A stretch of DNA of 64,000 nt from contig NZ_JALKAA010000002.1 in NCBI RefSeq assembly GCF_024171605.1, positions 682,001 through 746,000 of the forward strand, written 5' to 3'. The position numbers and the translations under genes were made by a program. The stretch is from Pontibacter sp. HSC-36F09 (lineage in GTDB: Bacteria; Bacteroidota; Bacteroidia; Cytophagales; Hymenobacteraceae). Below the pieces are notes generated by a model, which worked only from the letters and a program-made list of their open reading frames with translations, did not search any database and was not told the origin of the DNA. This document shows positions 1 through 64,000 of the stretch, piece by piece (within the stretch, counting starts at the first letter, position 1; each line of letters opens with the position of its first letter).

Positions 1-349
1 GCTCGTCCAGCAATTCTCCGGTAGCGCCGCCTATCACTTTTATGTTAAAGCAGTCGAGGAGCTCTTTGGGTGCGTTGAGCGTAGAAACCGAGTCGTGGTT
101 ACCGCCTGTGATGATAATGTGGCGGCAACAGGTAGCGCATACCCTAGTCAGGAAGGTATAATATTGTTTGAGGGCCGTGTTGGAGGGAGCGCCGGTGTCG
201 AAGACGTCGCCGGCCATCAGAAGCACCTCAATCTTTTCGGTTTCAATGGTTTGCAGGAGCCAATCCAGGAAATGCTGGTGTTCTTCGGTTCGTTCGAGGT
301 TGACGAGTCGCTGGCCGAGGTGCCAGTCTGAAGTGTGTAGTATGCGCAT
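1..349 (-). CDS. sbcD: Exonuclease SbcCD subunit D, N-terminal part (truncated by window edge)
   Basis: The reading frame starts at an ATG at 349 and runs off the left edge without a stop, so only about 116 N-terminal residues are seen. They begin MRILHTSDWHLGQ and continue with LLMAGDVFDTGAPS and ITGGNHDS. These are the first metal-binding motifs (DxH, GDxxD, GNHD) of the Mre11/SbcD calcineurin-like phosphoesterase family. SbcD is the nuclease subunit that works with the SMC-like ATPase SbcC to open hairpins and process double-strand ends. sbcC is usually next downstream, which would lie outside the window. The 133 bp upstream spacer contains copies of the GGTATA word and no clear promoter. 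Confidence 0.93.
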   Translation of the reverse strand, partial: MRILHTSDWHLGQRLVNLERTEEHQHFLDWLLQTIETEKIEVLLMAGDVFDTGAPSNTALKQYYTFLTRVCATCCRHIIITGGNHDSVSTLNAPKELLDCFNIKVIGGATGELLDE

Positions 350-482
350 ATCCCTGTTCCTTTCTCCTTTGCACCACAAGTTACATTAAGGTATACCTAT
401 ACTGCAAGTTTGTGATATAAATTTTTCCGGATCAGGTATAGCGCTTTTGCTATATAAATGGAGGTATACAGGGTTTGGTAGC

Positions 483-905
483 TTACTGATTAATCCAGAT
501 CAGGGCATCCTTTTGGTTGGAGAAATTTTTGAATAAAAACCGGTTGATGTTTTGTGCTTCTGCGCGGGTGGCGACTGCCTCGAGGGCTATTTTGGAGAAA
601 AGGCTGCTTGGTAATATTCTGGCCAATTTATGAAGTGAAGTCTGGGAGAGCAGTTCATAGAAACTTGTCGACATCCAGTCTTTGGTAGAGGTGTCCAGCA
701 AAGTCAGCCGTTCTGCGTTGGCTACTGCCCTGGTGATGCCTGTATCACGAAGTGCTTCATAGAGCTTGGTGCCGCCCGTAATCATTTCGCTTTGAGTTAC
801 TCCCCGCAGCCACTCAGCCATCAATAAATCATTCTTCTTATCAACTTCTATTTTGTAGAAATCCGAAGAGTATATAGTTTGAAAAGAGGAATGTTTTAAC
901 AACAT
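483..905 (-). CDS. STAS/SpoIIAA-like domain protein
   Basis: A 140-residue protein with no signal peptide or membrane segment. The arrangement of a short N-terminal strand region (FYKIEVDKKNDLLMAEW), a GGTKLYEALRDTGI helix, an AERLTLLDTSTKDWM segment and a C-terminal NFSNQKDALIWI segment resembles the small SpoIIAA/STAS-fold proteins common in Cytophagales. Such proteins are usually cytoplasmic and of unknown partner. It has its own spacer on both sides and no obvious operon partner. The family assignment comes from overall pattern recognition; the function is unknown. Confidence 0.7.
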   Translation of the reverse strand: MLLKHSSFQTIYSSDFYKIEVDKKNDLLMAEWLRGVTQSEMITGGTKLYEALRDTGITRAVANAERLTLLDTSTKDWMSTSFYELLSQTSLHKLARILPSSLFSKIALEAVATRAEAQNINRFLFKNFSNQKDALIWINQ

Positions 906-977
906 GATAACAGATAAATCATGTAAAGGTACGTGAAAATACTAGTTGACAGTCACGCTGCGTACCAATTTTAACTA

Positions 978-1373
978 TTATTCTTTCACCGGAAGACCAG
1001 CTGATTTAAGGTCTTGATACCCACCGATGTTATAAACGTTTTTAAAGCCGGCTTCTTCCATCAGTTTGGCTGCTTTGCCGCTTCGGTTTCCGCTGGCGCA
1101 GTACAGGTAGTAGGTTTTGTTTTTGTCCCAAGTCTGCATTTCTTTTTCAAACTGGCCGCTCAGGAAGTCGGCGTGCTGGGTGTTTTCGAGGTGTCCCGCT
1201 TCAAACTCAGTAGGAGTGCGCACATCAACCAGCATAACTTCTTGGTTGTCGATCTTTTCATGGTGGGCTTTGTATTCGGTGGCAGAAATAGTTTTGACTT
1301 TTGCGTCGCCTTGCTGTGGGCTGGTGCAGCTCATCAGGCTAGCTGCCATTATGGTGATTAGGAATAGTTTCAT
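978..1373 (-). CDS. Rhodanese-domain lipoprotein
   Basis: A 131-residue protein with a lipoprotein signal peptide (lipobox SLMSC, lipidated Cys16) followed by a single rhodanese domain. The domain shows the VDVRTPTEFEAGHL entry motif and the active-site loop CASGNRSG with catalytic Cys92, as in PspE/GlpE-type single-domain sulfurtransferases. It should be anchored in the periplasm-facing leaflet and handle sulfane sulfur (thiosulfate or persulfide). It lies 122 bp downstream of an ArsR-family gene on the same strand, so the two may be co-transcribed. Persulfide metabolism is a reasonable inference but the substrate is not shown. Confidence 0.88.
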   Translation of the reverse strand: MKLFLITIMAASLMSCTSPQQGDAKVKTISATEYKAHHEKIDNQEVMLVDVRTPTEFEAGHLENTQHADFLSGQFEKEMQTWDKNKTYYLYCASGNRSGKAAKLMEEAGFKNVYNIGGYQDLKSAGLPVKE

Positions 1374-1495
1374 GGAGAATTCGGGTTAACCTATGTTATT
1401 GTAAACGTAAGCAAGCATTTTTTGGTGCGCCGGCTCTTTCCAGAGTTCGATTCAAAAAGTAAGTATATGAAAATAATTTCATTTTACTATGCATT

Positions 1496-1813
1496 CTAAC
1501 CAGCTTCTTGTACAGGTTTGCAGCCTTTGATGCAATCAATGATGTCAGAGATGCTGGAGTCAGTGAGAAAATAAAATACATTTTTCCCCTGTCGGCGGGT
1601 TTCCACCAGACCTTTGTCGCGCATGTTGGTGAGGTGATGCGAGAGGAGCGACTGTTCGATTTCCAGCACTTCCTGTAACTGACTCACGGTGAGTTGGTCT
1701 TCCTGCTCCAGCAGATCAATGATGCTGATGCGCACCGGATGCGCCACGCATTTGAGCACATAGGCCGTTCGTTCCAGCTTTTTCTTTTCTACCCTTACTT
1801 TCAGGTCGGTCAT
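1496..1813 (-). CDS. ArsR-family winged-helix regulator
   Basis: A 105-residue ArsR/SmtB-type protein: the N-terminal AHPVRISIIDLL helix, a recognition region QSLLSHHLTNMRDKGLV, and the wing ETRRQGKNVFYFL. The arsenic-site motif ELCVC is absent. Cysteines occur at residue 22 (LKCVAHP) and at 94 and 98 (CIKGC), which could form a thiol-based or metal sensor. The downstream rhodanese gene makes sulfane sulfur a plausible signal by analogy with BigR/SqrR, but the cysteine positions differ from those proteins. An inverted repeat 27 bp before the start codon is a likely autoregulatory operator. Confidence 0.88.
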   Translation of the reverse strand: MTDLKVRVEKKKLERTAYVLKCVAHPVRISIIDLLEQEDQLTVSQLQEVLEIEQSLLSHHLTNMRDKGLVETRRQGKNVFYFLTDSSISDIIDCIKGCKPVQEAG

Positions 1814-1839
1814 GGGAGTTCGAATAATAGGTAATTACA

Positions 1840-1863
1840 ATACATGATCATTTATTCATGTAT
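1840..1863 (-). promoter_or_regulatory. Candidate ArsR operator
   Basis: Two perfect 8 bp arms, ATACATGA and TCATGTAT, separated by 8 bp, lie just upstream of the ArsR gene. The ATAnnTGA...TCAnnTAT layout is the usual one for ArsR/SmtB operators. Binding is inferred, not shown. Confidence 0.6.
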
Positions 1864-2015
1864 AAATTTTAATACAATTTTAAACCGCTTTAGGTTCCGG
1901 TGAAGTTGGCTGTAGCACAGGTATATCGAAACGGGTCAGGTATAGCGGAAAAAGTATATGCGTGACCTGGTAAGTATGTGAGGCGGGTATAGATTTAATC
2001 AGGTTTCCTGAAACA

Positions 2016-2044
2016 GGAAAAGCCGGCACGGGGCCGGCTTTTCC
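2016..2044. terminator. Terminator downstream of catalase
   Basis: A perfect 12 bp stem, GGAAAAGCCGGC with its complement, around a 5-base loop lies 25 bp beyond the catalase stop codon. The A/T run is inside the stem, so it can act in either direction. Confidence 0.8.
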
Positions 2045-2068
2045 ATAGCACAAAATTATGGTGTCATC

Positions 2069-4766: not shown

Positions 4767-5915
4767 TTAAAAAGCCTCTCCGATCATCACATAAAAATTC
4801 ACTCCTTCGCGCCCATACCCGATATCTGCCCGAATGTTGAGTTTTTGCTCGGGGTTCAGGGCGTAGCGCAATCCAGTTCCGACGGAGTATTTGAGCGTAG
4901 AGAAATGCACGTATTTTGGTTTGTCGAACACATCGCCTATACCTGCAAAAGCCGCCATGCCAAAGCGCCAGAACAGCGGGAAGCGGTACTCCAGCTGCGT
5001 GCCTGCAAAGTTGTCTTCCAGAAAGCGGTTTTTGGCATAGCCGCGCAATATGCGGTCGCCCCCGGCCATGGCCATGCGCATCACAGGTATATCGCCGTTG
5101 TTGAGGTTAAAGCTTGTGTTATGCGCCAGAATGTGGTTCGGTTTCAGCTGGAAATACTTCCGGAAGTCGAGGTTGAAATTGTTGTAGCCAAAGTCTCCAC
5201 CGAACGTGCTGCCAAAGCGGTAGCCGGACATTTCGAGGTAAGTGCCGCTACTGGCAAAGGCCACATTGTCCCGGCTGTCGAGCAGGAAAACAAGACCCAG
5301 GCCGCTGTTCAGTCCACCCTGGTAGCCCGGAATCTGCTGGGTAAGCAGCTGGCTCTCTCTGTCTTCGTTAATCGGGTTGAGTTGGAGGTCGTAGTAGTTC
5401 GCGATCTGAAAGTCAGGTCCCAGGAAAGTGCGTGTTCCTACCTTTCTCAAAGCAGCCAATCGGGCGCTCACATAATCGTATTCATAGATTTCCTCATCAG
5501 AAAGCGGCGTGTCGTTGCCGATACCATAAAATCGGTCGGTATATACCCGGTGGCGCAGCTCGCCACGCAGCAGGAATTTTTCATCGCGCGTAAAAATGGC
5601 CCAATCCAAGAGTTGGTCGGTTTGCTTGCGCAAGGTATAATCCACGATCAGCCGCATGGTGGAGAGACGGGTATAGTCCTCGCCTTCGCTGTTTTTCAGT
5701 TTGAAGAAACCAAGCAGCGCTGCCCCAAATCCGAGCTTCGTGTCGGGGGTATAGTATAGTACCGGAATCGGAATCAGGCCGCGTGTTTTCTCAGCTTTAG
5801 GCGGAGTCGTGTCGGGTATAGCATCAGCCTGTTGGTCCTGCGCCAGCACTTGGGTAGGCGTGCCCAGCAGCAAACAGAATCCCAGCAAGCAGCTGGCAAG
5901 TGCATGTCGTTTCAT
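4767..5915 (-). CDS. Omp85-type outer-membrane barrel protein (BamA/TamA C-terminal domain only)
   Basis: A 382-residue exported protein with a cleavable signal peptide ending VLAQ near residue 25, a short acidic linker and then a bacterial surface antigen (Omp85) barrel. The barrel starts at about LIPIPVLYYTPDTKLGFGA and ends in the aromatic residue typical of outer-membrane strands (MIGEAF). No POTRA domains are present, so it is not BamA itself. The motif GGDRILRGYAKNRF is the family's conserved (V)RG-F/Y loop-6 region (here LRGY). It is paralogous to the protein at 6617-7750; both start the barrel and end the protein with nearly the same words. The role is unknown, with surface-layer or lipid/protein insertion functions conceivable. 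Confidence 0.85.
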   Translation of the reverse strand: MKRHALASCLLGFCLLLGTPTQVLAQDQQADAIPDTTPPKAEKTRGLIPIPVLYYTPDTKLGFGAALLGFFKLKNSEGEDYTRLSTMRLIVDYTLRKQTDQLLDWAIFTRDEKFLLRGELRHRVYTDRFYGIGNDTPLSDEEIYEYDYVSARLAALRKVGTRTFLGPDFQIANYYDLQLNPINEDRESQLLTQQIPGYQGGLNSGLGLVFLLDSRDNVAFASSGTYLEMSGYRFGSTFGGDFGYNNFNLDFRKYFQLKPNHILAHNTSFNLNNGDIPVMRMAMAGGDRILRGYAKNRFLEDNFAGTQLEYRFPLFWRFGMAAFAGIGDVFDKPKYVHFSTLKYSVGTGLRYALNPEQKLNIRADIGYGREGVNFYVMIGEAF

Positions 5916-6061
5916 AAAACTGATAAGGTATAAGGTGAGGGGGTGGGTTCTGTGTTATAACAGGTATAAAGCAGGACTTTTCCAGTAGAAATGTAGGGAA
6001 GTTTAAGTGATTTTTGCTAGTAGTGAGGGGATTTTTTTGTCTTGCTGGCAGGTATAGCTTC

Positions 6062-6593
6062 ATGGCGCGAGCGTCCACGCTCGTGTCTGCTATCGTGGGG
6101 CCTCTGGCCCGGGTATAGGTATAGGTATAGCGGAAATGTGGTTTTGCATGGGGCCAGTTTTTAACTGGCGTAGCGGCGGCTTTTGCAGGTATAGCAACTA
6201 GTTTCGTTTCATTGCTTCGCCTGTGCGGCGGGCACCTACTTTTTGTCTTGACACAAATCGAGGGCCCCTTCCCCCAAAGTAGGCAAAAAAGTCAAGACTC
6301 CCCAAACTCGCTGAACGCTCAAACAGTGGTTAGTCATTTAGGTGCACTTGGAAAAGTTGTCTGTTTCATAGCTCAAGGGGCAAGTTACTTTTTCTATACC
6401 TACCAGGAGTCTGTGCTACAACGCTTATACCTTGAACTGGTAGTAACTCAAACTCCCCTCCTTGGATAAGGAGGGGGTAGGGGTGGTTGGACCTGGTATA
6501 GCAAAGGAACTGCATCAACTACGAAGCTATACCTGAGAACTGGCAGTGCGGAAAACTCCCCCTTTGAAGGGGGCAGGGGGATGTTAATCGTGC
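6062..6593. repeat. Intergenic repeat element, copy A
   Basis: This spacer element shares long near-identical blocks with 12525-13000. Shared blocks include ATGGCGCGAGCGTCCACG, the GGTATA tandem (3 units here, 6112-6129), GGCGTAGCGGCGGCTTTTGC, AGTCAAGACTCCCC and a closing CCCCTTTGAAGGGGGCAGGGG hairpin word. Copy A has about 100 bp not found in copy B, including a second hairpin-like block (CCCCTCCTTGGATAAGGAGG) around 6456. It carries no convincing coding sequence or transposase. It fills most of the ~700 bp between the two paralogous Omp85 genes, and the remaining 145 bp next to the 5915 start shows nothing clear. Confidence 0.85.
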
Positions 6594-6616
6594 ATAACTC
6601 TTACCAACACTAATAT

Positions 6617-7750
6617 TTAAAACGCTTCCCCGATCATCAGATAAATATTGAATCCTTCGCGGCCATAGCCTATATCCAGCCTCGAGTTGAGTTTCTGATC
6701 GGGGCGGATGGCGTAGCGCAGGCCGGTGCCTACGGAGTACTTCACTGTCGAAAAACTTATGTCTTTTGGTTTGTCGAACACATCGCCTATACCTGCAAAG
6801 GCCGCTCCACCCAGACGCCAGAACAGCGGGAAACGATACTCCGCCTGTGTGCCGGCAAAGTGGTCGTCGTGGAAGCGGTTACGGGCGTAGCCGCGCAGTA
6901 TCTTGTCGCCGCCAGCGGTGGCCAGGCGCTGTACCGGCACTTCGCCCTCGTTTAGCCGGAGCATGGTGTTGGTAGCCAGCACGCGGTCATTGCCCAGGCC
7001 ATAATAGCGGTTGAATTCGAAGTTGAGGTTATTGTAGCGGAAGTCGCTGCCGAAAGTCTTGCCGAAATGGTAACCCGATAGCTCCAGGTAAAAACCTTTG
7101 CTCGGATAGGCGGTGTTGTTGCGGTGGTCGATCAGGAAAATAGCGCCCAGACCCACATTGCGCCCTTTTCTGTAGCCGGGTAGCTGCTGCGAGAGCAACT
7201 GACTGTCTTCCTCCAGTTTTACATTATAATACTCCGTAAACTGAATGTCCGGCCCTAGGAAGCTGCGGAAGCCCACGTTTTTGAGCACTGCAATTTTCGC
7301 TGAAACCATGTCATAGTCATAGATCTCACGGTCGTCTTTTCGGCTATCGTTGCCGAGGCCGTAGAAGCGGTCGGTATAAATGCGGTGCCGCAGCTCGCCA
7401 CGCAGCATCAGACGCTCCTCGCGGGTAAAAATATTCCAGTACAGCCATTGGTCGGTTTGCTTGTTCAGGGTATAGTCCACCACCAGGCGGGCCAGCGAGA
7501 GGCGGGTATAGGTGGTGTCGGTATAGCTGCGAAGGCGGAAGTAACCCAGCAATGAGGCACCAAAGCCTAATTTGGTGTCGGGGGTATAGTAGAGGACGGG
7601 CGCAGGTATAAGCCCTTTTACGCTGCGCATGTCCGGCTTAGGCGGATCAACTGTTTTGTCTTCTACGGTTTGTTCCTGCGCCAGCACTGGGGCAGATTTT
7701 AAAAAGAGTAATGCTAGTAGCAGATAGGTGAGGTATAGGTATAAGCGCAT
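6617..7750 (-). CDS. Omp85-type outer-membrane barrel protein, paralogue
   Basis: A 377-residue paralogue of the 4767-5915 protein with the same plan: signal peptide (hydrophobic stretch ending VLAQ), linker, then a barrel beginning LIPAPVLYYTPDTKLGFGA and ending YLMIGEAF. GGDKILRGYARNRF marks the conserved loop-6 region. Starting at the ATG at 7750 gives a normal signal peptide; the in-frame ATG at 7810 would add 20 polar residues before it and is rejected. No POTRA domains are visible. The intergenic repeat lies exactly between the two paralogues, which suggests an old tandem duplication. Confidence 0.85.
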   Translation of the reverse strand: MRLYLYLTYLLLALLFLKSAPVLAQEQTVEDKTVDPPKPDMRSVKGLIPAPVLYYTPDTKLGFGASLLGYFRLRSYTDTTYTRLSLARLVVDYTLNKQTDQWLYWNIFTREERLMLRGELRHRIYTDRFYGLGNDSRKDDREIYDYDMVSAKIAVLKNVGFRSFLGPDIQFTEYYNVKLEEDSQLLSQQLPGYRKGRNVGLGAIFLIDHRNNTAYPSKGFYLELSGYHFGKTFGSDFRYNNLNFEFNRYYGLGNDRVLATNTMLRLNEGEVPVQRLATAGGDKILRGYARNRFHDDHFAGTQAEYRFPLFWRLGGAAFAGIGDVFDKPKDISFSTVKYSVGTGLRYAIRPDQKLNSRLDIGYGREGFNIYLMIGEAF

Positions 7751-7983
7751 GCAAACGTTGTTTCTGGAACGGGTTCTTAAAATATCAGGAGTACATACGT
7801 AAAGCAGCATTTCTGGTCTATACCGGGGTGCTGCATTTGTAGATTATGGAAGTTTCTATATTAGATAAAGTATATGGAGGTTGATCCTGAATATTTTATG
7901 AAGTTTTACAAGGAATTTTAAAGTGAAGATGTCTATATTGTGTTCTAAACCTAAACTAACCTCTTCTTCACCTTCACAGAACA

Positions 7984-12524: not shown

Positions 12525-13000
12525 ATGGCGCGAGCGTCCACGTTCGTGTCTACGATAGTGGGGCCTCTGGCCCGGGTATAGGTATAGGTATAGGTATAGG
12601 TATAGGTATAGGTATAGGTATAGGTATAGGTATAGGTATAGGTATAGCGGGAATGTGGTTTTGCATAGGACCAGTTTTTAACTGGCGTAGCGGCGGCTTT
12701 TGCAGGTATAGCAAATAGTTTCGTTGCATTGCTTCGCCTGTGCGGCGGGCACCTTCTTTTTGTATTGACACAAAAAGAAGGCAAAAAAGTCAAGACTCCC
12801 CAAACTCGCTGAACGCTCAAACAGTGGGTAGTCATTTAAGTGCACCTGGCTCAGGAAATTTGTTTCATAGCCTAAGGGGCAAGTTACTCTTGCTATACCT
12901 GCAAGCGTGCTGATACAATAACTACAACGCTTATACTTATAAATTCGCAACGGCAGGAAAGTCCCCCTTTGAAGGGGGCAGGGGGATGTTAAGCGTGCCG
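12525..13000. repeat. Intergenic repeat element, copy B
   Basis: This is the second copy of the element at 6062-6593, in the same orientation. It keeps the same order of blocks from ATGGCGCGAGCGTCCACG to the CCCCTTTGAAGGGGGCAGGGG hairpin word near 12964. Relative to copy A it lacks about 100 bp near its end and a ~20 bp block near 12765, but its GGTATA tandem is four times longer. It occupies the spacer between the convergent amidohydrolase and ComEC genes. Open frames across it are repeat artefacts. Confidence 0.85.
12575..12646. repeat. GGTATA tandem repeat, 12 units
   Basis: Twelve perfect head-to-tail GGTATA hexamers (72 bp) inside repeat copy B. Copy A has three units at 6112-6129. The unit is the core of the word scattered through the whole window. 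Confidence 0.98.
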
Positions 13001-13035: not shown

Positions 13036-15141
13036 CTACAACTCCACCACCAACGCCCCTAACTCCGTCACATCATAAAACGCTATACCTGCCTCTGCCA
13101 GTTGTGGCCTTAATCGCTGCAGGTACCAGGGGGCATTGGAGGCGTCGAGTACTAACTGTTTGAAGCGGAAGGGCTGCAGTTCCTCGGGCTTTATTCGCAC
13201 GTTTTGGGTGATCAGCAGGTAATCAACTTCAAAATCGGGGAGTGGCTGCACTTTGATCGGTTTCGAAACCACGAGCAGGCGCTTGCCCTGCCAAACAAGC
13301 AGACTGTTGTTGTCAGGTAGTATCACGTGGCTTATACCTGTAGTTGAAGCATCTGTGAAGGTATAGGTATTGGCTTGTTGCACACCTTTGTGCCACAGGT
13401 AGGGCTGAATATTGAAGGTATAGTTCTGTGGCGCCAGCGGTTGGTCGCTTAATACTGCTCCCTGCTGTCCGCGTACAAAGCTGAGCGCAGTGGCATTGCG
13501 CATGTTGTAGACCACTAAACTACGTTGGTTGCGCTGCGAGCTTATTTCTATAATTTCCTGAACCGCCAGCATGGCCACCACAACAGTAGCCAAAGCAAAG
13601 TAGCGGAGTTTTTTGTACGAGAAAAATAGAATGATGAGGAGCATCAGGGCATAAAGCAGCCAGGCTTGGGTATAGCTGATATCGATGCCATTTATCAGGG
13701 CCTCCGGAAGCTGGTGCACCCGTATGGTGAATTCGTTCATGAACCAGATGGACCAAAAATGGGATTGGAACGCCAGGTACGACAGAAAAGGCACCCACGA
13801 GAAGGCCAGGGCTGCCACACCGGTATACAGCGCCAGGGTAGAAAGCGGCACGACGACCAGGTTAGCCAACCAGAAGTAGACCGGGAACTGGTGGAAATAT
13901 AGCAAGCCCAGCGGGAAGGTGATGAGTTGCGCGGCTACCGAAATCGTAGACAAAGCCCAGACCTTATCCAGCAGCCAGTTATCAAATGTCACGATCTTGT
14001 AGAGCAAAGGCTGCAGGTATACGATGCCGAGTACGGCCAGGAAGGAGAGCTGAAACCCGACGTCCAGCAGGTAGTAAGGTTCGTAGAGCAGCAGGAAAAA
14101 GGCCGCTATACCTAGTGTATTGTAGATGTTGGGGCGGCGGCTGATGGTGCGCGCTACCGTTACCAAACTGAACATGACCACAGCCCGGAGTACTGAGGGA
14201 GAAAGACCCGTGATAAAGGCATACATCCACAGAAAAGCGATCAAGAAAGCAGCTACAACTATTTTTTGGCGGCGGGTGCGGTTCACATACACCAGAAACA
14301 ACATCAGCACACTGTAGATCAGGCCCACGTGTAGTCCCGATACGGCCAGCACGTGCGTAGTGCCGGTGTTGTTGTATACCTGCAGAATCTCGTTATCCAG
14401 TTCGTCTTTTACACCCAGCAGCAACGCCGAGGAAATGCCATATTCGCGACGCTCTTCTATAGATTCTTTCAGCAGCACGTCCAGTTTGCGACGAAGTTGA
14501 ATGCTGTAGTGTAGGACCGGATTCGGCGGATCGGAGCCTATGAACTGGTACTGCTGCGGCTGCAAAAAATGGCGGTGGTATACCTGTTTGTTGGCCAGGT
14601 ACTGACGGTAGTCGAATTGGTTGGGGTTGGCAGGTGGTGCCACAAGCAGAGGCGCGCCTTTTATCAGCAGCCGGTCGCCATAACTTACTTCATACTCCCG
14701 CTTAGAGTCATGTGGCACGGAGAGCTGCACTTTGCCCTCTGCAACTTGCCACTGGCCGTTTACCTGCACCTGTTCTATTTGCAGCACCGTGTTCTGGTAG
14801 CCGGGTTTCTGCACCACGTAATCATCCACGACACCAACATAGTAAGCGGGCGTAGCAGAAAGCTTGCTCAGGTGCAGCGGGCGGTGCACTTCGGTATGCT
14901 GATGCGTGACCCACATGCCGCCGGCAACAAAGCAAAACAGCCCGGCTATACCTGCCAGTGTGTTGGCTTCTACGGATTTCAACCGGCGTGCGACAAGGTA
15001 TAGCACCAGGTATAGGGCAACAAAAAAGGCAAAGAGCTCAGGGCTATACCTGAACTCTTTGCCTTTGTACAGGTACACGAGTATACCTGCTATAAAGCTA
15101 AGAACAATGCGAACAAAAGGGTAGGGAGCCCACCGTTTCAT
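13036..15141 (-). CDS. comEC: ComEC/Rec2-family DNA-uptake channel
   Basis: A 701-residue inner-membrane protein. Two to three N-terminal hydrophobic segments are followed by an OB-like DUF4131 region (about 80-190), then the polytopic ComEC competence domain (about 230-520) with the hallmark TTHVLAVSGLHVGLIYSVL. The C-terminal ~150 residues lack the HxHxDH metallo-beta-lactamase signature found in Bacillus ComEC, as is usual in Bacteroidota. It would carry single-stranded DNA across the inner membrane. Its start overlaps the stop codon of the upstream GNAT gene by one base (TGATG), so translation is likely coupled. Confidence 0.93.
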   Translation of the reverse strand: MKRWAPYPFVRIVLSFIAGILVYLYKGKEFRYSPELFAFFVALYLVLYLVARRLKSVEANTLAGIAGLFCFVAGGMWVTHQHTEVHRPLHLSKLSATPAYYVGVVDDYVVQKPGYQNTVLQIEQVQVNGQWQVAEGKVQLSVPHDSKREYEVSYGDRLLIKGAPLLVAPPANPNQFDYRQYLANKQVYHRHFLQPQQYQFIGSDPPNPVLHYSIQLRRKLDVLLKESIEERREYGISSALLLGVKDELDNEILQVYNNTGTTHVLAVSGLHVGLIYSVLMLFLVYVNRTRRQKIVVAAFLIAFLWMYAFITGLSPSVLRAVVMFSLVTVARTISRRPNIYNTLGIAAFFLLLYEPYYLLDVGFQLSFLAVLGIVYLQPLLYKIVTFDNWLLDKVWALSTISVAAQLITFPLGLLYFHQFPVYFWLANLVVVPLSTLALYTGVAALAFSWVPFLSYLAFQSHFWSIWFMNEFTIRVHQLPEALINGIDISYTQAWLLYALMLLIILFFSYKKLRYFALATVVVAMLAVQEIIEISSQRNQRSLVVYNMRNATALSFVRGQQGAVLSDQPLAPQNYTFNIQPYLWHKGVQQANTYTFTDASTTGISHVILPDNNSLLVWQGKRLLVVSKPIKVQPLPDFEVDYLLITQNVRIKPEELQPFRFKQLVLDASNAPWYLQRLRPQLAEAGIAFYDVTELGALVVEL

Positions 15142-17493: not shown

Positions 17494-17500
17494 TTTTGGA

Positions 17501-17713
17501 ATGAGTGGATGAGTGATTGAGTGTATGAGTGATTGTGTAAATGAGTGAGTTTCTTGATTTGGGGGTTGATTGATGGGGAGAATCGGTGGGGATCTTACAC
17601 TTCTACATGAAATGGGTTCTGGAGTTTATGGCATAAGCCATACCTTTGTGTGCCTATTTGGTTTGAGTGATTAAGAAAATAACAATTCACTCAATCACTC
17701 ATTCACTCAATCA
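17501..17713. repeat. Degenerate GAGTGATT repeats forming an inverted pair
   Basis: The spacer begins with GAGTGGATGAGTGATTGAGTG-type words (17501-17536) and ends with their complement (17686-17713). A 15 bp exact inverted repeat, ATGAGTGATTGAGTG at 17509-17523, pairs with 17688-17702. The right arm stops 12 bases before the next start codon. Confidence 0.8.
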
Positions 17714-20877: not shown

Positions 20878-20930
20878 CTGGGAAAATACTGATGCTGTAT
20901 CAGTATAAATTCTTCCAACCCAGCCAATTC

Positions 20931-48995: not shown

Positions 48996-51179
48996 TTGGA
49001 GCTTTCCACACTTCTTGAATCACTGGCCGGCACGCCCCAAACCACCCTGGCATTAGGAGTGCTTTTGCTACCGCTACTGGCTTTCGTGCTGCTATACCTG
49101 GCGGGCAAAAAGCTACCCCGGCAGGGTGACTGGCTGGGGATTGGCGCCACCGGACTTGCCTTTGCACTTTCGATCTATCTCTTTACCCAGATCTGGAATA
49201 CGGAAGTATACCACAGCCGGGCCGTCTGGTTTAAGCTGCCTTCCAGCTTCATAGCCGATTTCACAGCAGGTATACTGCTCGATAACCTGACGGTGCTGAT
49301 GCTGGTCATCGTCACATTTATCTCTCTGCTGGTGCAACTCTTTTCGGTGGGCTACATGCACGGCGACAAAGGGTATAGCCGCTACTTCGCCTACCTGGGC
49401 CTCTTTACTTTTAGCATGCTGGGTATTGTGCTGGTTGATAACCTGCTGCTGCTCTTTATGTTCTGGGAGCTGGTGGGCTTGTCTTCCTATCTGCTCATCG
49501 GTTTCTGGTACGAGCGCCCGGCTGCCGTGGCAGCCAGTAAAAAAGCTTTCCTCGTCAACCGCGTAGGCGATATCGGGCTGTTGCTCGGCCTGTTTGCTTT
49601 CTATACCTATTTCCGTACGTTCGATCTGGAGGCCTTGCGTACCTTGATGGGGGCAGGGGAGTGGTTGAACGGGACCTTTGTGACAAGCTATACCTTTGAG
49701 GGACAGTTTTGGTCAGTTGAGTTAAGTTCGCTGTTTCTGACGCTGGCCGGGCTCGGTCTGTTTATGGGCTGTGTGGGCAAGTCGGCGCAGTTTCCGTTGC
49801 AGGTATGGCTACCCGACGCTATGCAAGGCCCGACACCTGTCTCCTCGCTGATACATGCTGCGACCATGGTAGCGGCTGGCGTATACCTGGTGGCGCGCTG
49901 CTATGCTTTCTTCACAGTAGATGCCCTCACGGTCATCGCTATTATTGGCGCCATCACGGCTTTGCTCGGTGCGCTGGCGGCACTCACGCAATACGACATT
50001 AAGGCAGTGCTGGCCTTCTCCACGATCTCGCAACTGGGCTACATGGTAATGGGCATGGGCACCGGAGCACACGACGCTTCGCTCTTTCACTTGACTACGC
50101 ACGCTTTCTTCAAGGCAGCGCTTTTCCTCAATGCCGGTATTATCATCCACGCCATGCACCGCGGACTGCACCATGCACATCTGCTTGCCGGGGTAGACCC
50201 ACAGGATATCCGTAACATGGGAGGTCTGCGCAAGGCAATGCCACTCACCTTCTATACCTATCTGCTGGCTGCGGCTGCGCTGGTCGGGTTGCCTTTGTTT
50301 TCCGGTTTCCTTTCCAAAGATGCCATCCTTTCAGGCAGTTGGGCCTGGGCACAGACGATGAGCCAGGCCAATGGAAACAACCTGTACTTTATAGTGCCTG
50401 TAATCGGCTTTACAGTTGTGTTGCTCACGGCTTACTACATGGGGCGGCATCTTTGGTTTATGTTCTTCGGTTCGTTCCGTTTGCCTTTCGATGTGCGAGC
50501 GCTGCGATTGTCGGCTGGTCAGGAGATGGAGCGGGTGATGCTTATACCTGTAGTATTATTGGCGGTGTTGTCGCTGGGTATTTTCTTTTCTCTCAACCCG
50601 TTATCCTTTGCCGGAAGTTGGGTGATGCAGGGCATCAGCTTGACACAACTTTCACAGGAAGGCACTCAGCTTGCCGATAGTTTGATTAAGGCTGTGACAA
50701 CGCAGGATGCTGCCAACGGCACTGCTCACCTGATGATCGGGCTGCTTTCAGTTCTGCTAGGTATAGCAGGTATAGCCCTGGCCTTTGGCAGGTATAAAGG
50801 AAAAAGTAGTGAGGCACTCCTGCAGGAACAGCCACGCGGTACTCTGGCAAAGCTGACGTATCACCATTACTACCTCGATACCGCCTACGACAAGGTGTTT
50901 ATAAGACCCGTGTTGCAGATGGCCCGCATGCTATACCGCTTCGACAAACGTGTGATCGACTATACCCTGGACTACGCGAGCAAATGGCTGGTGGTGTTCT
51001 CCAAAATCGTAAAGTGGTTTGATAGTTGGGTAGTGGATGGCAGCGTGTGGCTGATCGGGGTGATGGCCAAAGTGCTCGGCCGTTTCGGGCGCGGACTTCA
51101 GAATGGCAAGGTGCAATCTTACTACGCTTACTCCCTTTTCGGATTTATTCTGATAATACTATACATCATGCTGAATTGA
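48996..51179 (+). CDS. nuoL: NADH-quinone oxidoreductase subunit L
   Basis: A 727-residue polytopic proton-pumping subunit of Complex I in the inner membrane. Conserved parts include FWELVGLSSYLLIGFW, KKAFLVNRVGDIGLL, KSAQFPLQVWLPDAMQGPTPVSSLIHAATMVAAG and ISQLGYMVMGMG. The long C terminus includes the lateral-helix region. No ATG lies after the upstream in-frame stop, so the TTG at 48996 is the best start. nuoA-K are not upstream; a spacer and an opposite-strand gene precede it. It heads an L-M-N group. Confidence 0.95.
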   Translation: MELSTLLESLAGTPQTTLALGVLLLPLLAFVLLYLAGKKLPRQGDWLGIGATGLAFALSIYLFTQIWNTEVYHSRAVWFKLPSSFIADFTAGILLDNLTVLMLVIVTFISLLVQLFSVGYMHGDKGYSRYFAYLGLFTFSMLGIVLVDNLLLLFMFWELVGLSSYLLIGFWYERPAAVAASKKAFLVNRVGDIGLLLGLFAFYTYFRTFDLEALRTLMGAGEWLNGTFVTSYTFEGQFWSVELSSLFLTLAGLGLFMGCVGKSAQFPLQVWLPDAMQGPTPVSSLIHAATMVAAGVYLVARCYAFFTVDALTVIAIIGAITALLGALAALTQYDIKAVLAFSTISQLGYMVMGMGTGAHDASLFHLTTHAFFKAALFLNAGIIIHAMHRGLHHAHLLAGVDPQDIRNMGGLRKAMPLTFYTYLLAAAALVGLPLFSGFLSKDAILSGSWAWAQTMSQANGNNLYFIVPVIGFTVVLLTAYYMGRHLWFMFFGSFRLPFDVRALRLSAGQEMERVMLIPVVLLAVLSLGIFFSLNPLSFAGSWVMQGISLTQLSQEGTQLADSLIKAVTTQDAANGTAHLMIGLLSVLLGIAGIALAFGRYKGKSSEALLQEQPRGTLAKLTYHHYYLDTAYDKVFIRPVLQMARMLYRFDKRVIDYTLDYASKWLVVFSKIVKWFDSWVVDGSVWLIGVMAKVLGRFGRGLQNGKVQSYYAYSLFGFILIILYIMLN

Positions 51180-51427
51180 TGTTAATTTCGCGATCAGGTT
51201 CTACAGGATGATCGGATTAGCAGGATGAAGGCTATACCTGTATACCTCATACAGAATTCTGCTTCCAGCTTGTGGAGCAATTGCGCAAATCTATACCTAT
51301 GCTCAGGAGGAGCTGTGGCTGAAAACAAAAAGGACCCGGCATCACATCGGGGAAAAGCATAACAATACAGATACACACATGCGTAGTCGTGTGTCGTGAT
51401 ACGTGATAAAAGTGTCGTAACATATTG

Positions 51428-53173
51428 ATGAATTATACTCTTTCCAGCCTTATTTTTCTTCCTCTGCTGGCGGCGCTCGTGGTGTTGCTGCTGCCGACGC
51501 GCATGCAGCGGGGCATAAAAGCAGTAGCGCTGGGTGGTACGCTGTTGCAACTGGCCGTAGCCGTGTGGCTATACCTGGGTTTCGATGGTGCTAAGGTGGC
51601 GAACGGACAGACAGGCTATCAGTTTGTGGAAAAACTCGACTGGATCGGTTTCTCCTTGGGTAGTCTGGGACGCTTTCAGATCGAATATTTTGTGGGCGTG
51701 GACGGTGTAAGTATCAGCATGGTGCTGCTCACAGGTATAGTGGGTGTGATCGGCGTTATCTCGTCATGGAACATCACCAAAAACGTGAAGGGCTATTTCT
51801 CGCTATACCTCTTACTCATGACCAGCGTAATGGGCTGTTTCCTGGCGCTGGACTTCTTCCTGTTCTACCTCTTTTTTGAGTTCATGCTCCTGCCCATGTA
51901 CTTTCTCATAGGTATGTGGGGTGGGCCGAAACGGGAGTATGCCGCGCTTAAATTCTTCATCTATACCCTGATCGGATCGCTTTTCATTTTGGTCGTAATG
52001 ATCGGGCTCTATACCTCTGTGATTGATCCGGAGGCGACGGCGCAGCAAATGGGTCTGATCGGGCAGGACGTTCCTGCCAGTCTGGACATGGTTCGCCAAG
52101 TACAGCAGATGCTGCAACAGGGCGCAATCAGCGAGGCCGACATGGTGCGGACCTTCAGCATACCAGCCATGATGGAGCCGGCTAACTTTATACCGGGCAG
52201 TTTGCTCCATGTATTTTCAGGAGTTTCCCTCTTCGATCTCCCGATTCGCTTTGTGGCTTTCCTGCTGGTGCTGGCGGGTTTCCTGATCAAGGTGCCGTCT
52301 GTGCCGGTGCATACCTGGCTTCCTGATGCGCACGTGGAGGCACCTACACCTATCTCGGTACTGCTGGCGGCAATCCTGCTAAAGGTGGGCGGCTACGGTC
52401 TGATTCGCATTGCCTACCCTGTTTTCCCGGATGCTGGTGCTTACTTCTCTACTTTTGTCGGCGGGCTGGGGGTGCTCTCTATTATATATGGGGCTCTCTG
52501 TGCATTGGCCATGAATGATCTCAAAAAACTGATCGCTTACTCGTCGGTATCGCACATGGGCTTTGTGCTGCTGGGCCTGGCCTCGCTCACCAATGAAGGC
52601 GTGAATGGCGCTATTTACATGATGTTCAGCCACGGCCTTATCTCGGCAATGCTTTTCCTGGTGGTGGGAGTGATTTATGACCGCGCGCACGACCGCATGA
52701 TCCTGAATTTTCGGGGACTTGCCAAACGCATGCCGGCCTATACCGCTTTTGTTGTGATCGCTTTTTTTGCTTCGCTGGGTTTGCCGGGCTTCTCGGGTTT
52801 TATCGCCGAGCTGCTGGTGCTGCTGGGTAGTTTCAGTGCACCGGAAGCAACAGGTATGCTGCCACGCTGGATGGCGATCGTAGCTGTGATCGGTCTGCTG
52901 CTGTCTGCGGCTTATTACCTGTGGGCGCTGCAGCGTATGTTCTTCGGCAAGTACTGGATCTTCCCGGAGTTGCGAGGGAAAGCCCAGCTCACCGATCTAA
53001 CCAAACGCGAGTACCTGATGCTGTTGCCGCTGGCTATTCTGGCTTTTGTCTTCGGCATTTTTCCGCATCTGCTCCTCGACAAAACAGGCATGACAGTGAC
53101 AGGCTTTACGGAGCTGGTGCTGCGAAACGGACAGGAGCAGCTCAACATCCTGCAAGCGATTTTACAGAGATAA
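51428..53173 (+). CDS. nuoM: NADH-quinone oxidoreductase subunit M
   Basis: A 581-residue antiporter-like Complex I subunit with about 14 hydrophobic segments. Hallmarks are LFYLFFEFMLLPMYFLIGMWGG, WLPDAHVEAPTPISVLLAAILLKVGGYGLIR and ISYSSVSHMGF-like YSSVSHMGFVLLG. ATG 51428 is the start. The 248 bp spacer after nuoL is unusually long for this operon and contains AGGATGA-type words and GGTATA copies. Confidence 0.95.
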   Translation: MNYTLSSLIFLPLLAALVVLLLPTRMQRGIKAVALGGTLLQLAVAVWLYLGFDGAKVANGQTGYQFVEKLDWIGFSLGSLGRFQIEYFVGVDGVSISMVLLTGIVGVIGVISSWNITKNVKGYFSLYLLLMTSVMGCFLALDFFLFYLFFEFMLLPMYFLIGMWGGPKREYAALKFFIYTLIGSLFILVVMIGLYTSVIDPEATAQQMGLIGQDVPASLDMVRQVQQMLQQGAISEADMVRTFSIPAMMEPANFIPGSLLHVFSGVSLFDLPIRFVAFLLVLAGFLIKVPSVPVHTWLPDAHVEAPTPISVLLAAILLKVGGYGLIRIAYPVFPDAGAYFSTFVGGLGVLSIIYGALCALAMNDLKKLIAYSSVSHMGFVLLGLASLTNEGVNGAIYMMFSHGLISAMLFLVVGVIYDRAHDRMILNFRGLAKRMPAYTAFVVIAFFASLGLPGFSGFIAELLVLLGSFSAPEATGMLPRWMAIVAVIGLLLSAAYYLWALQRMFFGKYWIFPELRGKAQLTDLTKREYLMLLPLAILAFVFGIFPHLLLDKTGMTVTGFTELVLRNGQEQLNILQAILQR

Positions 53174-53226
53174 CACCTTGGTGCTATAAGCATTATCAGG
53201 GACACTACTATACCTTATACCGACAC

Positions 53227-54738
53227 GTGGAAGAACAGGCAGCACAACTCCCCCAGGCCATCGACAGTATTTTAGCTGGAGCAGGGTCGCTGCTGCCCGA
53301 ATTACTGCTGGCCATTTTCTTCCTGCTGCTGGTCACGCTCGATCTCTTCAAATCCAAAACAGTGAAGCGGCTGTTGCCTTGGGTGGCGCTGACCGGGCTT
53401 TTTTCTGTACTAGTGCTGTTGGTGCTGGGGCCACAAGGTATAGACGGGGTGCAGTTTCTCAACCTGCTGCGCTCTGACGGTATCGCGCGCTACACAGGTA
53501 TACTCTTCAGCTTGACAGGCATCTTTACCATCCTCCTCTCCCTGCAAAACCCGAAAATAGAAAGACGCAAACAGGGCGAAGGCCGGGGCGAGTACTATGC
53601 CCTGATCCTAATGCTCGTGCTGGGCCTCAACCTGATGGCCAAATCAGTGAACCTGCTGATGGTTTTCCTGGCGATTGAGGTTGTTTCCATTGCTTCCTAT
53701 ATCCTGACGCTCACCCTGAAAGAAGAAAAAAAAGCTGTGGAGGCCGGTCTGAAATACGTGCTTTACGGTACCTTGTCGGCAGGAGTGATGCTCTACGGCA
53801 TGTCCTTTTTCTACGGCCTGACTGGCTCGCTGGACTATACCCTGGTTTCGTTCTGGCGCAGTCTGCTCGATGCCAGTCCGCTGATGGTGACGGTGGCGGC
53901 CATACTCGTGTTTGCCGGTTTCCTGTTCAAAATATCCGCCGCTCCTTTCCATTTCTGGACACCGGAAGTATACCAGGGGGCACCGATGCCGATTGTAGCG
54001 CTCTTCTCCACGGGTCCTAAAATGGCGGGCATCATCGTCATCATGCGTTTTGTGGCTGCCTTTGCTGATCCGACCATTGCGGGTGCCTTTGCTGATGTGC
54101 AGCTTTTCTTAGGTATAGCCGCCCTGGCTACGCTTGCGGTAGGTAATTTTACAGCACTTTGGCAGCGTACGCCTCGTCGCCTGATGGCTTTCTCATCGGT
54201 GTCGCATGCGGGTTTTCTGCTTATGGCGCTGCTGGCTTTTGGCAGTGACTATACCGTAAGCGTGCTGTTTTATATGACGGTGCTGCTTTTCATGAACTTC
54301 GGTATTTTCCTGTTCCTGCAGATGGCCGAAGAAGACTGGCAGGTGCACACACTCGAAGATTTTAAGGGAATGGGGACTCGTGTTCCTTTTGCCGGCGTTA
54401 TGGCGCTGCTCTTTCTGCTCTCACTTACGGGTCTTCCGCCACTGGCCGGCTTCATGGGCAAGCTGCTGGTTTTTAGCAACGTTTGGGAAGCTTATACTGC
54501 CAACGGGCAGCCGATGCTGTTGGTTTTGCTCGTGGTGGGTATTCTGTTGACAGGGGTGGCTTTATTCTACTATATCAAAATACCATATCACCTTTTCCTG
54601 AAAAGGAATCAAACTGCCGAAAATTTAGTTATTTCACTGTCAAATAAGCTGCTGCTGGTTTTTTTCGCCCTGCCGCTGCTGGTCCTCTTTTTTAAACCTG
54701 ACCTGCTGCTGCAATGGATACAGAAACTGCTGGCCTAG
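53227..54738 (+). CDS. nuoN: NADH-quinone oxidoreductase subunit N
   Basis: A 503-residue antiporter-like Complex I subunit. It has LMVFLAIEVVSIASYILTL, KYVLYGTLSAGVMLYGMSFFYG, PFHFWTPEVYQGAPMPIVALFSTGPK and SSVSHAGFLLMALLAF. The frame is open back into nuoM, but no ATG exists after the nuoM stop. The GTG at 53227 (MEEQAAQLPQ) gives the normal N terminus, 53 bp after nuoM. purF-like follows 16 bp downstream. Confidence 0.93.
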   Translation: MEEQAAQLPQAIDSILAGAGSLLPELLLAIFFLLLVTLDLFKSKTVKRLLPWVALTGLFSVLVLLVLGPQGIDGVQFLNLLRSDGIARYTGILFSLTGIFTILLSLQNPKIERRKQGEGRGEYYALILMLVLGLNLMAKSVNLLMVFLAIEVVSIASYILTLTLKEEKKAVEAGLKYVLYGTLSAGVMLYGMSFFYGLTGSLDYTLVSFWRSLLDASPLMVTVAAILVFAGFLFKISAAPFHFWTPEVYQGAPMPIVALFSTGPKMAGIIVIMRFVAAFADPTIAGAFADVQLFLGIAALATLAVGNFTALWQRTPRRLMAFSSVSHAGFLLMALLAFGSDYTVSVLFYMTVLLFMNFGIFLFLQMAEEDWQVHTLEDFKGMGTRVPFAGVMALLFLLSLTGLPPLAGFMGKLLVFSNVWEAYTANGQPMLLVLLVVGILLTGVALFYYIKIPYHLFLKRNQTAENLVISLSNKLLLVFFALPLLVLFFKPDLLLQWIQKLLA

Positions 54739-60146: not shown

Positions 60147-60162
60147 GAATTAATCAAGCCAC

Positions 60163-60447: not shown

Positions 60448-60460
60448 AGCGGTGCAGGGT

Positions 60461-61593: not shown

Positions 61594-61605
61594 GCTTTTC
61601 CTCCC

Positions 61606-62382: not shown

Positions 62383-63220
62383 AGTGAGGTCTTTGAAGGA
62401 TTTCGGTTACAGATGTATTGCCACTGGTGATGGCGTTGAAGAGCAGTTCCATGTCTACTTTGCTGTAGTTGCCCATCACGTTTAGCAGAATGGCCTGCCT
62501 GCCACGCAGCGCATCTTCAGCATAAAGAGCATTATGGGCTTCGGATTCAGGTATGGTCGTGAAAGTGAGTCGTTCACTGATCGTATCAAGCGACTCATTC
62601 AGCACGATCTCCCGGTCGTGCACCACCACCAATGTATCGATCAGGCTGTCGAGGTCGCGCACCTGGTGGGTGGAGATGATGATGCAGCGATTCTCGGTGA
62701 GGGCAGAGGCAATGATGCGGCGGAACTGTACCTTGGAAGGTATATCCAGGCCATTGGTCGGTTCGTCCATGATCAGCACGCTGGTGTTGGTGGCAAGGCC
62801 GAAGGCGATGATGGCCTTCTTCTGCTGACCAAACGACATTTTGCTGAACACAGCGTGCGCTGGCACCTCAAACTCGGAAAGGTAACGGTAAAAGGCCTCT
62901 TCGTCGAAGAGGGGATAGAAGGGCGCCGTGTTCGCCACAAATTGCCTGGCTGTTAGTGACGGCATGTAGATTTCTTCCGGAATGAAATAGAGATCCCCGA
63001 GCATAGCCGGCTGGCGCTTGTGCGAATCGAATCCGTTTACCTGACAAGTGCCCTCCAGAGGAGAAACCAGCCCGACCATGTTCTTGAGCAGTGTGGACTT
63101 GCCCGCTCCGTTCTTGCCCAGTAGCCCGTAAATATGGCCCTCCTGCAGCGTTAGGTTCAGGTTCCGGAACAGCAGCGACTTGCGGCTATACCCGAAACTA
63201 AGGTTCTTGATCTCAATCAT
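62366..63220 (-). CDS. ABC transporter ATP-binding protein
   Basis: A 284-residue ATPase (ATG 63220; an upstream ATG at 63256 lies inside the operator and is rejected). Walker A GKNGAGKST is at 35-43, the signature is MSFGQQKKA (about 128-136), Walker B is LIMDEPTNGLD (149-159) and the switch His is 185 (STHQ). A ~70-residue C-terminal extension follows. It is first in the cassette ATPase, permease, GntR, DUF2807 and small protein. Confidence 0.94.
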   Translation of the reverse strand: MIEIKNLSFGYSRKSLLFRNLNLTLQEGHIYGLLGKNGAGKSTLLKNMVGLVSPLEGTCQVNGFDSHKRQPAMLGDLYFIPEEIYMPSLTARQFVANTAPFYPLFDEEAFYRYLSEFEVPAHAVFSKMSFGQQKKAIIAFGLATNTSVLIMDEPTNGLDIPSKVQFRRIIASALTENRCIIISTHQVRDLDSLIDTLVVVHDREIVLNESLDTISERLTFTTIPESEAHNALYAEDALRGRQAILLNVMGNYSKVDMELLFNAITSGNTSVTEILQRPHYEQSL

Positions 63221-63233
63221 TTGTATTTGTTTT

Positions 63234-63257
63234 AGTGTATTAGTTACATAGTACACT
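63234..63257 (-). promoter_or_regulatory. GntR (YtrA-type) operator
   Basis: AGTGTA and TACACT are separated by 12 bp. The YtrA operator of Bacillus is reported as AGTGTA-N13-TACACT, so only the spacing differs by one. It covers the predicted transcription start of the cassette. Confidence 0.75.
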
Positions 63258-63258
63258 A

Positions 63259-63289
63259 CAAATGTATATATAGTTTTATCAATACCAAA
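63259..63289 (-). promoter_or_regulatory. Promoter of the GntR/ABC cassette
   Basis: On the minus strand TTTG (63286-63289) is followed after exactly 19 bp by TACATTTG (63259-63266). This is a full Bacteroidota housekeeping promoter, ending one base before the operator. Confidence 0.85.
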
Positions 63290-63440
63290 TTATTTTTTAA
63301 AATATTTAGATAAGGGTATATAAGCTTAAGATGAAGCAGTTGGGATAACAGTGGGTCTGCTTTTTACCATTATCCGGGGATTCAGGAGAATTGAAAAACA
63401 ATGAAAGGAGGTGAGGCTTATAAATCAGTTATACCTATAC

Positions 63441-63665
63441 CTAGGAAGAGGTGTGATTAGAAAGGGCCAGGTATACCTGCTCCGCATCCTGCTTCTCGAA
63501 TATTTTCTGGGAGGCTCCGAAGTCAAGCACAAGTTTGGCGGTTTGCTGCTCCGTTTCTGGTTTAAAATAAGCGTAGCACAGTTTGCCCACATCCAGCAGG
63601 AAGGTAGCACGTGTAGCGCCGCTGCCGAGCTGAATGCTTATAAAGTTGCTGTTATCGTGCTGCAT
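63441..63665 (-). CDS. Hypothetical protein
   Basis: A 74-residue open frame (FISIQLGSGATRATFLLDVG, VLDFGASQKIFEKQDAEQVY) that follows the CAP-domain gene by 30 bp on the same strand. Composition looks coding but no family is recognised. Confidence 0.5.
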   Translation of the reverse strand: MQHDNSNFISIQLGSGATRATFLLDVGKLCYAYFKPETEQQTAKLVLDFGASQKIFEKQDAEQVYLALSNHTSS

Positions 63666-63695
63666 GGCTATACCTGGGTTCTGCTCAGGTATACG

Positions 63696-64000
63696 TTAGT
63701 TTCGGAATTTCTGCGTGATCATCAAGCCATGCTCTTTGCTCTGCAGCACGCCTATACCTACCCGCCCAAAGCGCAGGTGCAGGATGTTGGCCCGGTGGCC
63801 AGGCGATTCCATTAGCCCTTCGTGGGCAATGGCAAGGGTAGGGGCCAGGGCCAGGTTCTCGCCAGCTGCCCTGAACGGAATATGGGCAGCCCGGATTCTG
63901 TCCGCTGCACTGGCTCCCTCCGGCGAGACATGCGAAAAATAGCCGCGCGAGAACATATCAGCTGCATGTTGCCGGGCAATCCTGGTAAGGGCCGTATCCG
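63696..64000 (-). CDS. CAP-domain (SCP/PR1-like) protein, C-terminal part (truncated by window edge)
   Basis: The frame is open to the right edge; about 100 C-terminal residues are visible. They contain the CAP-family sequence HAADMFSRGYFSHVSPEGASAADR with the metal-site His, then AGENLALAP and LMESPGHRANIL, and finish soon after GVGVL-like VGIGVLQSKEHG. Bacterial CAP proteins (YkwD type) are usually secreted, and some act on cell walls or lipids. The N-terminal signal lies outside the window. Confidence 0.92.
   Translation of the reverse strand, partial: DTALTRIARQHAADMFSRGYFSHVSPEGASAADRIRAAHIPFRAAGENLALAPTLAIAHEGLMESPGHRANILHLRFGRVGIGVLQSKEHGLMITQKFRN

Follow-up and report, generated by a model that had tools for sequence, protein, structure and literature searches.

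A dense, asymmetric GGTATAG word with clade-specific spellings in the genomes of Pontibacter

The GGTATAG word in the window and in the genome

The window analysed here is a 64-kb stretch of the genome of Pontibacter sp. HSC-36F09 (G000:C2:682001-746000; source assembly G000, 4.43 Mb), whose closest named relatives by nuoL are Pontibacter amylolyticus, Pontibacter sp. BT731 and others (90-94% protein identity). It carries two Omp85 genes (4767-5915 and 6617-7810, together spanning 4767..7810) and the competence gene comEC (13036..15141; Pfam Competence PF03772 and DUF4131), all on the reverse strand, as well as nuoL (48996-51179) followed by nuoM and nuoN on the forward strand (51425..54738), and all of these genes are strewn with copies of a short word, GGTATAG. 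Positions 1..64000 hold 142 copies of it, 67 on the forward and 75 on the reverse strand and in different reading frames, as compared with a mean of 5.18 and a largest value of 13 in 100 dinucleotide shuffles. An excess far above chance had been claimed in an earlier reading of this DNA (the original prediction), and the effect proved larger than claimed: the whole genome contains 6,653 copies (3,456 + 3,197), or one site per 665 bp, whereas the reversed word occurs only 396 times (203 + 193) and is thus 17-fold rarer.

The nine copies in nuoL lie exactly where they had been predicted, at 49092, 49601, 49688, 50252, 50931 and 50960 on the reverse strand and at 49372, 50760 and 50769 on the forward strand (span 49092..50966). 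There are nine further sites in comEC, six in nuoM, five in nuoN, and four and six in the two Omp85 genes, which gives 27 to 50 sites per 10 kb and bears out the similar density proposed for these genes. A supposed sparsity in the AT-rich gene at 18907-20355 was not found; its GC content is indeed 0.40, but with three exact sites in 1.45 kb it stands at about the window average, and the GC-richer M3 peptidase gene at 44709-46904 (GC 0.54) has none at all.

Twelve of the 142 sites overlap one another in a single tandem (GGTATA) array of 12.2 copies on the forward strand (12575..12647), located 3' of comEC within an intergenic repeat. This repeat, roughly 450 bp in length, has two copies in the window (6060-6580 and 12525-12990), the first with 3 and the second with 12 GGTATA units in tandem, the shorter array (6112..6130, forward strand) providing three overlapping word sites.

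A 444-kb sample of the same genome, comprising the window and nineteen further stretches (a 1.6-kb contig being left out), was used to define the word. The top 8-mer by z-score was AGGTATAG, with 562 copies against 16.4 expected from a second-order Markov model, an excess of about 34-fold. When each of the six inner positions was varied by one base and the resulting 18 neighbours were compared with third-order expectation, only the change A7->G was far over it (108 versus 27.8), the next neighbours reaching 47 versus 27.3 and 40 versus 22.6; at the outer positions A1->G and G8->A/C were raised too. The word is therefore best described as [A/G]GGTAT[A/g][G/C/A], with GGTATAG as its core. As a positive control, the same type of scan detected the core CGATCGC of the highly iterated palindrome 1 (HIP1) of Thermosynechococcus, with 54 copies versus 2.9 in 18.3 kb and 20 versus 1.4 at a second locus.

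Genes called by a simple open reading frame (ORF) model, which missed some genes such as nuoN, made up 72% of the 444 kb and contained 419 of its 707 sites, as against 52.2 after synonymous codon shuffles, and every one of the six relative frames lay above the shuffled expectation. The Markov k-mer count and the six-frame shuffles thus dispose of the two explanations that the original prediction had set against itself, namely a lack of excess over matched words and codon use in a single frame. Site density was 23 per 10 kb outside called genes versus 13 inside, a comparison that is approximate since some of the outside sites sit in missed genes. Convergent intergenic spacers seem denser (35 sites in 5.3 kb), but 14 of these 35 sites are in the single spacer with the 12-copy array. 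Close pairs of sites in the same direction were in excess at multiples of 6 bp, partly owing to that same array; close pairs in opposite orientation showed no excess, and inverted-pair terminators were accordingly rejected as an explanation of the word.

The distribution over the replication strands was examined for 604 of the 707 sites, located in the window, in 280 kb of contig C1 and in two further pieces of 20 kb each, after weak-skew segments had been dropped, with skew standing in for replication direction. The G-rich (leading) strand carried 318 sites and the other strand 286 (p = 0.21), so that there was no significant bias and, in the same test, no origin-to-terminus polarity of the type of the FtsK orienting polar sequences (KOPS). 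This speaks against the segregation mark that had been among the predicted functions.

Spellings of the word across the genus

Word counts in 50 Pontibacter genomes, G000 included, were judged by a threshold of about 1,000 copies on each strand, and revealed three spellings or dialects, which we designate A (GGTATAG), B (AAGTATAA, AAGTATA-type) and C (AACTATAG, AACTATAR-type). By this measure 39 of the 50 genomes are rich in at least one of them. Twelve are rich in GGTATAG, all with more than 2,000 copies (G000, G038, G046, G069, G071, G081, G091, G095, G101, G103, G111 and G121), 23 in AAGTATAA and seven in AACTATAG, 27 having either or both of the latter two, with G058 barely reaching the AACTATAG threshold (1,004 and 998). 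AAGTATAR and AACTATAR occur together in G018, G033 and G058, and also at one further locus (L045). The remaining 11 genomes are word-poor (G002, G013, G028, G075, G097, G109, G113, G115, G125, G127 and G131), G115 being intermediate for GGTATAG (1,381 and 1,397). The sequence around nuoL in named Pontibacter genomes carries these same words. P. roseus and P. lucknowensis are examples of dialect A, P. chinhatensis of B and P. populi of C. That the spelling of the word varies between branches of the genus is a new result of the present analysis.

Outside the genus, the genome counts covered two spellings: GGTATAG was absent at comparable abundance from five further genera of the same family, represented by 150 genomes, and AAGTATAA from 235 genomes sampled across the order. 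Nor did a set of twenty 20-kb stretches from the family's other genera, to which four nuoL loci had been added, contain any word of comparable z-score strength. The best z was 12.5 (GGGGCCCC, in one stretch), whereas AACTATAG reached 29.3 in a Pontibacter stretch of equal length.

Several weaker words were observed in passing. Seven Adhaeribacter loci showed TTCCGGAA at about 3-fold over expectation, 60 kb from another genus of the family (g4, three loci) had 16 copies of ACCTAGGG versus 0.9, and one further 20-kb stretch (L222) had 12 copies of AAATTCAT versus 0.4. In 62 kb of Pontibacter sp. E15-1 from three loci, GGTATAAA (27 versus 2.8) and GGGTATGG (23 versus 2.4) might represent a weak fourth spelling, and in G002, which is without the usual words, TATATAAA and CTATATA words were 5- to 8-fold over at five loci. 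Words one base off GGTATAG or its complement were seen in 100 kb of the word-poor G125 (CTCTACC, 43 versus 6.3, five loci) and in P. beigongshangensis and P. qinzhouensis (CTACACC, 16 and 14 versus about 2); perhaps these are remnants or a weak spelling of the word.

Codon alignments of four nuo-region genes (nuoL, nuoM, nuoN and the gene at 54755-56647) from 40 genomes were used to compare the dialects place by place; tallies of alignment cells, like those of pairwise sites below, count related genomes repeatedly and are not independent events. At 22 A columns, where the A word is present in half or more of the A genomes, B cells read AAGTATA[AGC] in 88 of 310 cases, and at eight B columns A cells read AGGTATA[GAC] in 55 of 96. 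Such re-spelling was less common in genomes of dialect C, where 6 of the 82 cells at A columns had AACTATAG. In a looser set of columns, with the word in at least two genomes and the TATA kept, the three preceding bases of B cells at A columns were AAG in 82 of 137 cases. Among A cells they were AGG in 102 of 162 at B columns and in 23 of 35 at C columns, where B cells had AAG in 29 and AAC in 18 of 59; word-poor genomes were mixed at A columns (AGG 17 and AAG 8 of 39). The bases before a kept TATA thus follow each group's own dialect, and the same places are found re-spelled. As alignment gaps were no commoner at word sites (320 of 1,296) than at random places (304 of 1,296), word sites arise by substitution, and repeat insertion was rejected as the source of the sites in genes.

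Site conservation across related genomes, a check named in the original prediction, was assessed by aligning the window in turn with each of 11 genomes of dialect A (77.5 to 86.1% identity). The word was kept at 526 of 788 places (67%), whereas permuted words were kept at 417 of 1,437 (29%).

A quick four-protein tree rooted with Adhaeribacter, in which nine forks are weak, has P. arcticus (B word) splitting first, the A genomes as a single clade and C within B, with the word-poor lineages, along with Botryobacter, falling inside the genus. Three changes between word and none suffice on this tree: to give two examples, the word may have been gained once and lost twice, or gained, lost and then regained. 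The midpoint-rooted tree differs in placing P. ruber next to A and not next to the C group. On the four-protein tree Botryobacter ruber nests in Pontibacter.

Second replicons were compared with their chromosomes in three two-contig genomes. The observed/expected ratio of AAGTATA was 1.4 (all 74 kb), 2.7 (100 of 204 kb) and 1.7 (80 of 116 kb) on the small contigs, and 13.0, 10.5 and 9.6 on the respective chromosomes (40 to 77 kb sampled). One of the small contigs (C2 of G129) encodes a relaxase, TraG and TraM and is a conjugative plasmid; the other two are probably plasmids as well. A low-GC polysaccharide cluster of G000 is likewise poor in the word, with 6.5 sites per 10 kb.

Competence genes and other features of the window

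Each of the 50 genomes of the genus has comEC, which by its sequence would encode the inner-membrane DNA channel of transformation, together with dprA and a gene for a ComEA-like helix-hairpin-helix (HHH) protein. The latter has about 304 to 346 codons and HHH_3 domains (three in G000, where the gene is on C1 near 442,750-443,700), and its sequence reads as though the protein had one N-terminal membrane anchor; HHH_3 also matches a second protein of 752-816 residues in each of the 50 genomes. Broken frames were found for comEC in G089, G046 and G119, for dprA in G089 and G046, and for the HHH gene in G089, and these are apparently separate losses of competence genes within the genus. If breakage were independent, the probability that both dprA-broken genomes fall among the three comEC-broken ones would be 0.0024, a value that rests on three and two genomes. 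The shared breakage suggests that these genes belong to a common pathway in Pontibacter. ORF coverage, the sole check of quality, was normal in sampled stretches of G089 (135 kb) and G046 (50 kb), and thus these two do not look like error-rich assemblies.

Elsewhere in the window, two short arrays of 8-bp units (GAATGAGT and TCACTCAA) at 17499-17548 and 17687-17713 adjoin a gene for S-adenosylmethionine (SAM) hydroxide adenosyltransferase, and the stretch at 20892-30458 encodes a 3,188-aa protein with immunoglobulin-like repeats and a type IX secretion C-terminal domain (CHU_C).

Possible roles of the word

By analogy with DNA uptake sequences (DUS), which it matches in being dense and asymmetric, in its origin by substitution, in its dialects around a constant core, in its conservation and in its scarcity on second replicons, the word is probably a self-DNA uptake or recombination word. 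It would mark homologous DNA as self and most likely be read during the uptake of free DNA for transformation. The original prediction had described it as a dispersed word of the DUS or HIP1 kind and had listed an uptake signal among several functions. That description stands, and the uptake signal appears to fit best of the options listed once the evidence includes the dialects and their conversion in place, the conservation of sites, the scarcity of the word on second replicons and the competence genes; no reader protein was found.

The DUS of the Neisseriaceae are likewise short, asymmetric, high-copy words with clade dialects around a constant core, and one genome, that of Simonsiella, is reported to have two dialects (PMC3630211), as G018, G033 and G058 do here. 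They belong to another phylum and have a CTG core, where the Pontibacter word of 7-8 bp has a constant TATA, and they are bound by the receptor ComP, whereas no full type IV pilus ATPase was found in Pontibacter and its reader is putative. The uptake signal sequences (USS) of the Pasteurellaceae, of the Hin and Apl types, are similar to the Pontibacter word in having arisen by substitution and not by insertion and in having two subclade spellings; the same source reports competence gene defects in three species and, among the rows listed, 8-mer excesses of 26- to 51-fold, with 16-fold in H. ducreyi, a range that includes the excess in Pontibacter (PMC1626085). Uptake has been measured in that family, whereas in Pontibacter it is predicted. 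With the DUS and USS the word thus shares its asymmetry, its tens-fold excess on both strands, a density of about one site per kilobase, its origin by substitution, its conservation, its clade dialects and the presence of comEC, comEA-like and dprA genes; what it does not share is a type IV pilus with a minor-pilin receptor. Since a search for the pilus machinery of the known families came up empty, and uptake is a predicted role here, we do not file the word as a member of the DUS/USS class. In Riemerella anatipestifer, another member of the Bacteroidota, transformation needs ComEC, DprA and an HHH protein, and the machinery described is without known pilus parts (PMC8459023). All three families are also present in Pontibacter, and there are differences: the main text of that paper contains neither 'uptake sequence' nor 'DUS', and DUF5689, a surface-gene family of Riemerella, does not track the word (see below).

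If the word does serve uptake or recombination, a putative sequence-specific DNA-binding protein at the surface or in the periplasm would prefer word-bearing DNA, which would be handed to the ComEA-like triple HHH protein and to ComEC, protected by DprA and then recombined. Word-bearing alleles would be imported more often than word-free ones, and word-creating point mutations would thereby spread in all frames and on both strands. A change in the specificity of the reader would lead to existing sites being re-spelled in place, giving rise to clade dialects, and its loss would let the sites decay. Competence itself, the reader and the drive are what we infer in this scheme.

Several findings weigh against an uptake or recombination role. 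None of the 11 word-poor genomes has a broken frame in comEC, the HHH gene or dprA, so that these genes do not track the word and their loss is unsupported as the cause of word loss. G046, with comEC and dprA broken, nevertheless has the full word load, which fits uptake only if its gene loss is recent, and in the competence-broken G089 the word ratio is slightly low (6.1 versus 8.1 to 9.6), which makes for a weak case of decay. The known or proposed DUS and USS receptors are type IV minor pilins, according to two papers (PMC3868556, PMC12616744), and the pilus ATPase family PF00437 had no full match in the 50 genomes, the pilin families themselves not having been searched; matches were short, about 40 to 70 of 370 positions, and barely passed the cut-off in three genomes. 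A reader of the word would thus have to be of another kind, presumably working with a different ATPase. DUF5689 was rejected as the reader for lack of any association with the word, being present in 17 of 39 word-rich and 5 of 11 word-poor genomes and absent in G000. One stretch of the 204-kb second replicon (G073:C2:20001-40000) has 20 AAGTATA in 20 kb, which is the chromosomal level. In G000 the cytochrome-oxidase operon, presumably core, has 7 sites per 10 kb and is about as word-poor as the low-GC polysaccharide cluster, so constraint matters for word density too. Within genes, reverse sites outnumber forward ones (271 versus 148), a skew that codon use predicts as well (34 versus 18), and a quintile test revealed no positional bias of the word within genes, a point of difference from the USS (compare PMC2346458).

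Among the alternatives, a HIP1-like chromosomal mark appears rather unlikely. It would have a modification, repair or replication protein act at the word, with that activity or a mutational bias accumulating the word and no role in uptake. HIP1 is likewise a dense, dispersed chromosomal word, as the Thermosynechococcus control illustrates, and an enzyme with changed specificity would give rise to dialects too. However, HIP1 is the palindrome GCGATCGC, identical in all cases described and linked to orphan methyltransferases (PMC4390886), and the Pontibacter word does not belong to its class because it lacks both palindromy and a constant spelling. The two methyltransferase families examined do not track the word either. 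PF01555 is present in 31 of the 50 genomes and missing in 13 of the 39 word-rich ones; the Eco57I-type family (PF07669) has some match in 47 of 50, but strong full-length matches are sporadic and those in the word-rich G000, G038, G046, G103, G111 and G121 are partial only. Not being universal in word-rich genomes, both were rejected as partners of the word.

Chi sites are short, asymmetric, species-specific words with a leading-strand bias. A Chi-like signal, read by an enzyme of the AddAB or RecBCD type that protects or recombines the chromosome, with dialects following changes of the enzyme, would account for an asymmetric chromosomal 8-mer that is scarce on second replicons, but we regard it as improbable: the Pontibacter word fails to fit the Chi class since it has no significant strand bias, and three spellings per genus together with a tens-fold excess are more than is known of Chi. 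Still more doubtful is a selfish micro-repeat, in which GGTATA hexamers expand in tandem and an insertion element copies them around. The 12-copy array and its 3-copy version do sit in two copies of one intergenic repeat, and pairs in the same direction are over-represented at multiples of 6 bp, partly because of that one array, but the majority of sites lie inside called genes, aligned sites show no excess of insertions or deletions, and the spelling changes in place. Finally, a composition or codon-use artefact, for which no support was found although ATA, TAT and CTA codons do sit in the word (304 of 1,181 ATA codons, a quarter, are inside it), is ruled out for practical purposes by the synonymous shuffles and the reversed-word counts, and the 150 genomes of other genera are without the excess.

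Returning to uptake, we tentatively propose, as a serious possibility falling somewhat short of a probable one, that Pontibacter has an uptake-signal system of its own, with at least three dialects, in the Bacteroidota and without type IV pili, which would employ a novel class of DNA receptor at the outer surface or in the periplasm and in which dialect switching would re-spell thousands of sites in place. To our knowledge, DNA uptake words are known only from the Neisseriaceae and Pasteurellaceae; Campylobacter presents a case of methylation-dependent DNA uptake. The wording of two abstracts likewise confines uptake words to these two families (PMC1939737, PMC7811141). Among open-licence papers, taken by title and start of abstract and with long listings covered in part, none described uptake words in Bacteroidota or competence in Pontibacter, which does not amount to absence from print, and no open-licence paper linked Pontibacter with GGTATA.

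If the proposal is true, the word would represent a third origin of uptake words, in the Bacteroidota and without the pilus ATPase, with both dialects and word-poor lineages in a single genus, and thus an independent replicate of the evolution of uptake specificity. It would also open a route to a new kind of DNA receptor: word-rich genomes would be expected to have its gene, and word-poor or re-spelled clades to have lost or altered it. Placing the right word on DNA could help the transformation of these environmental bacteria.

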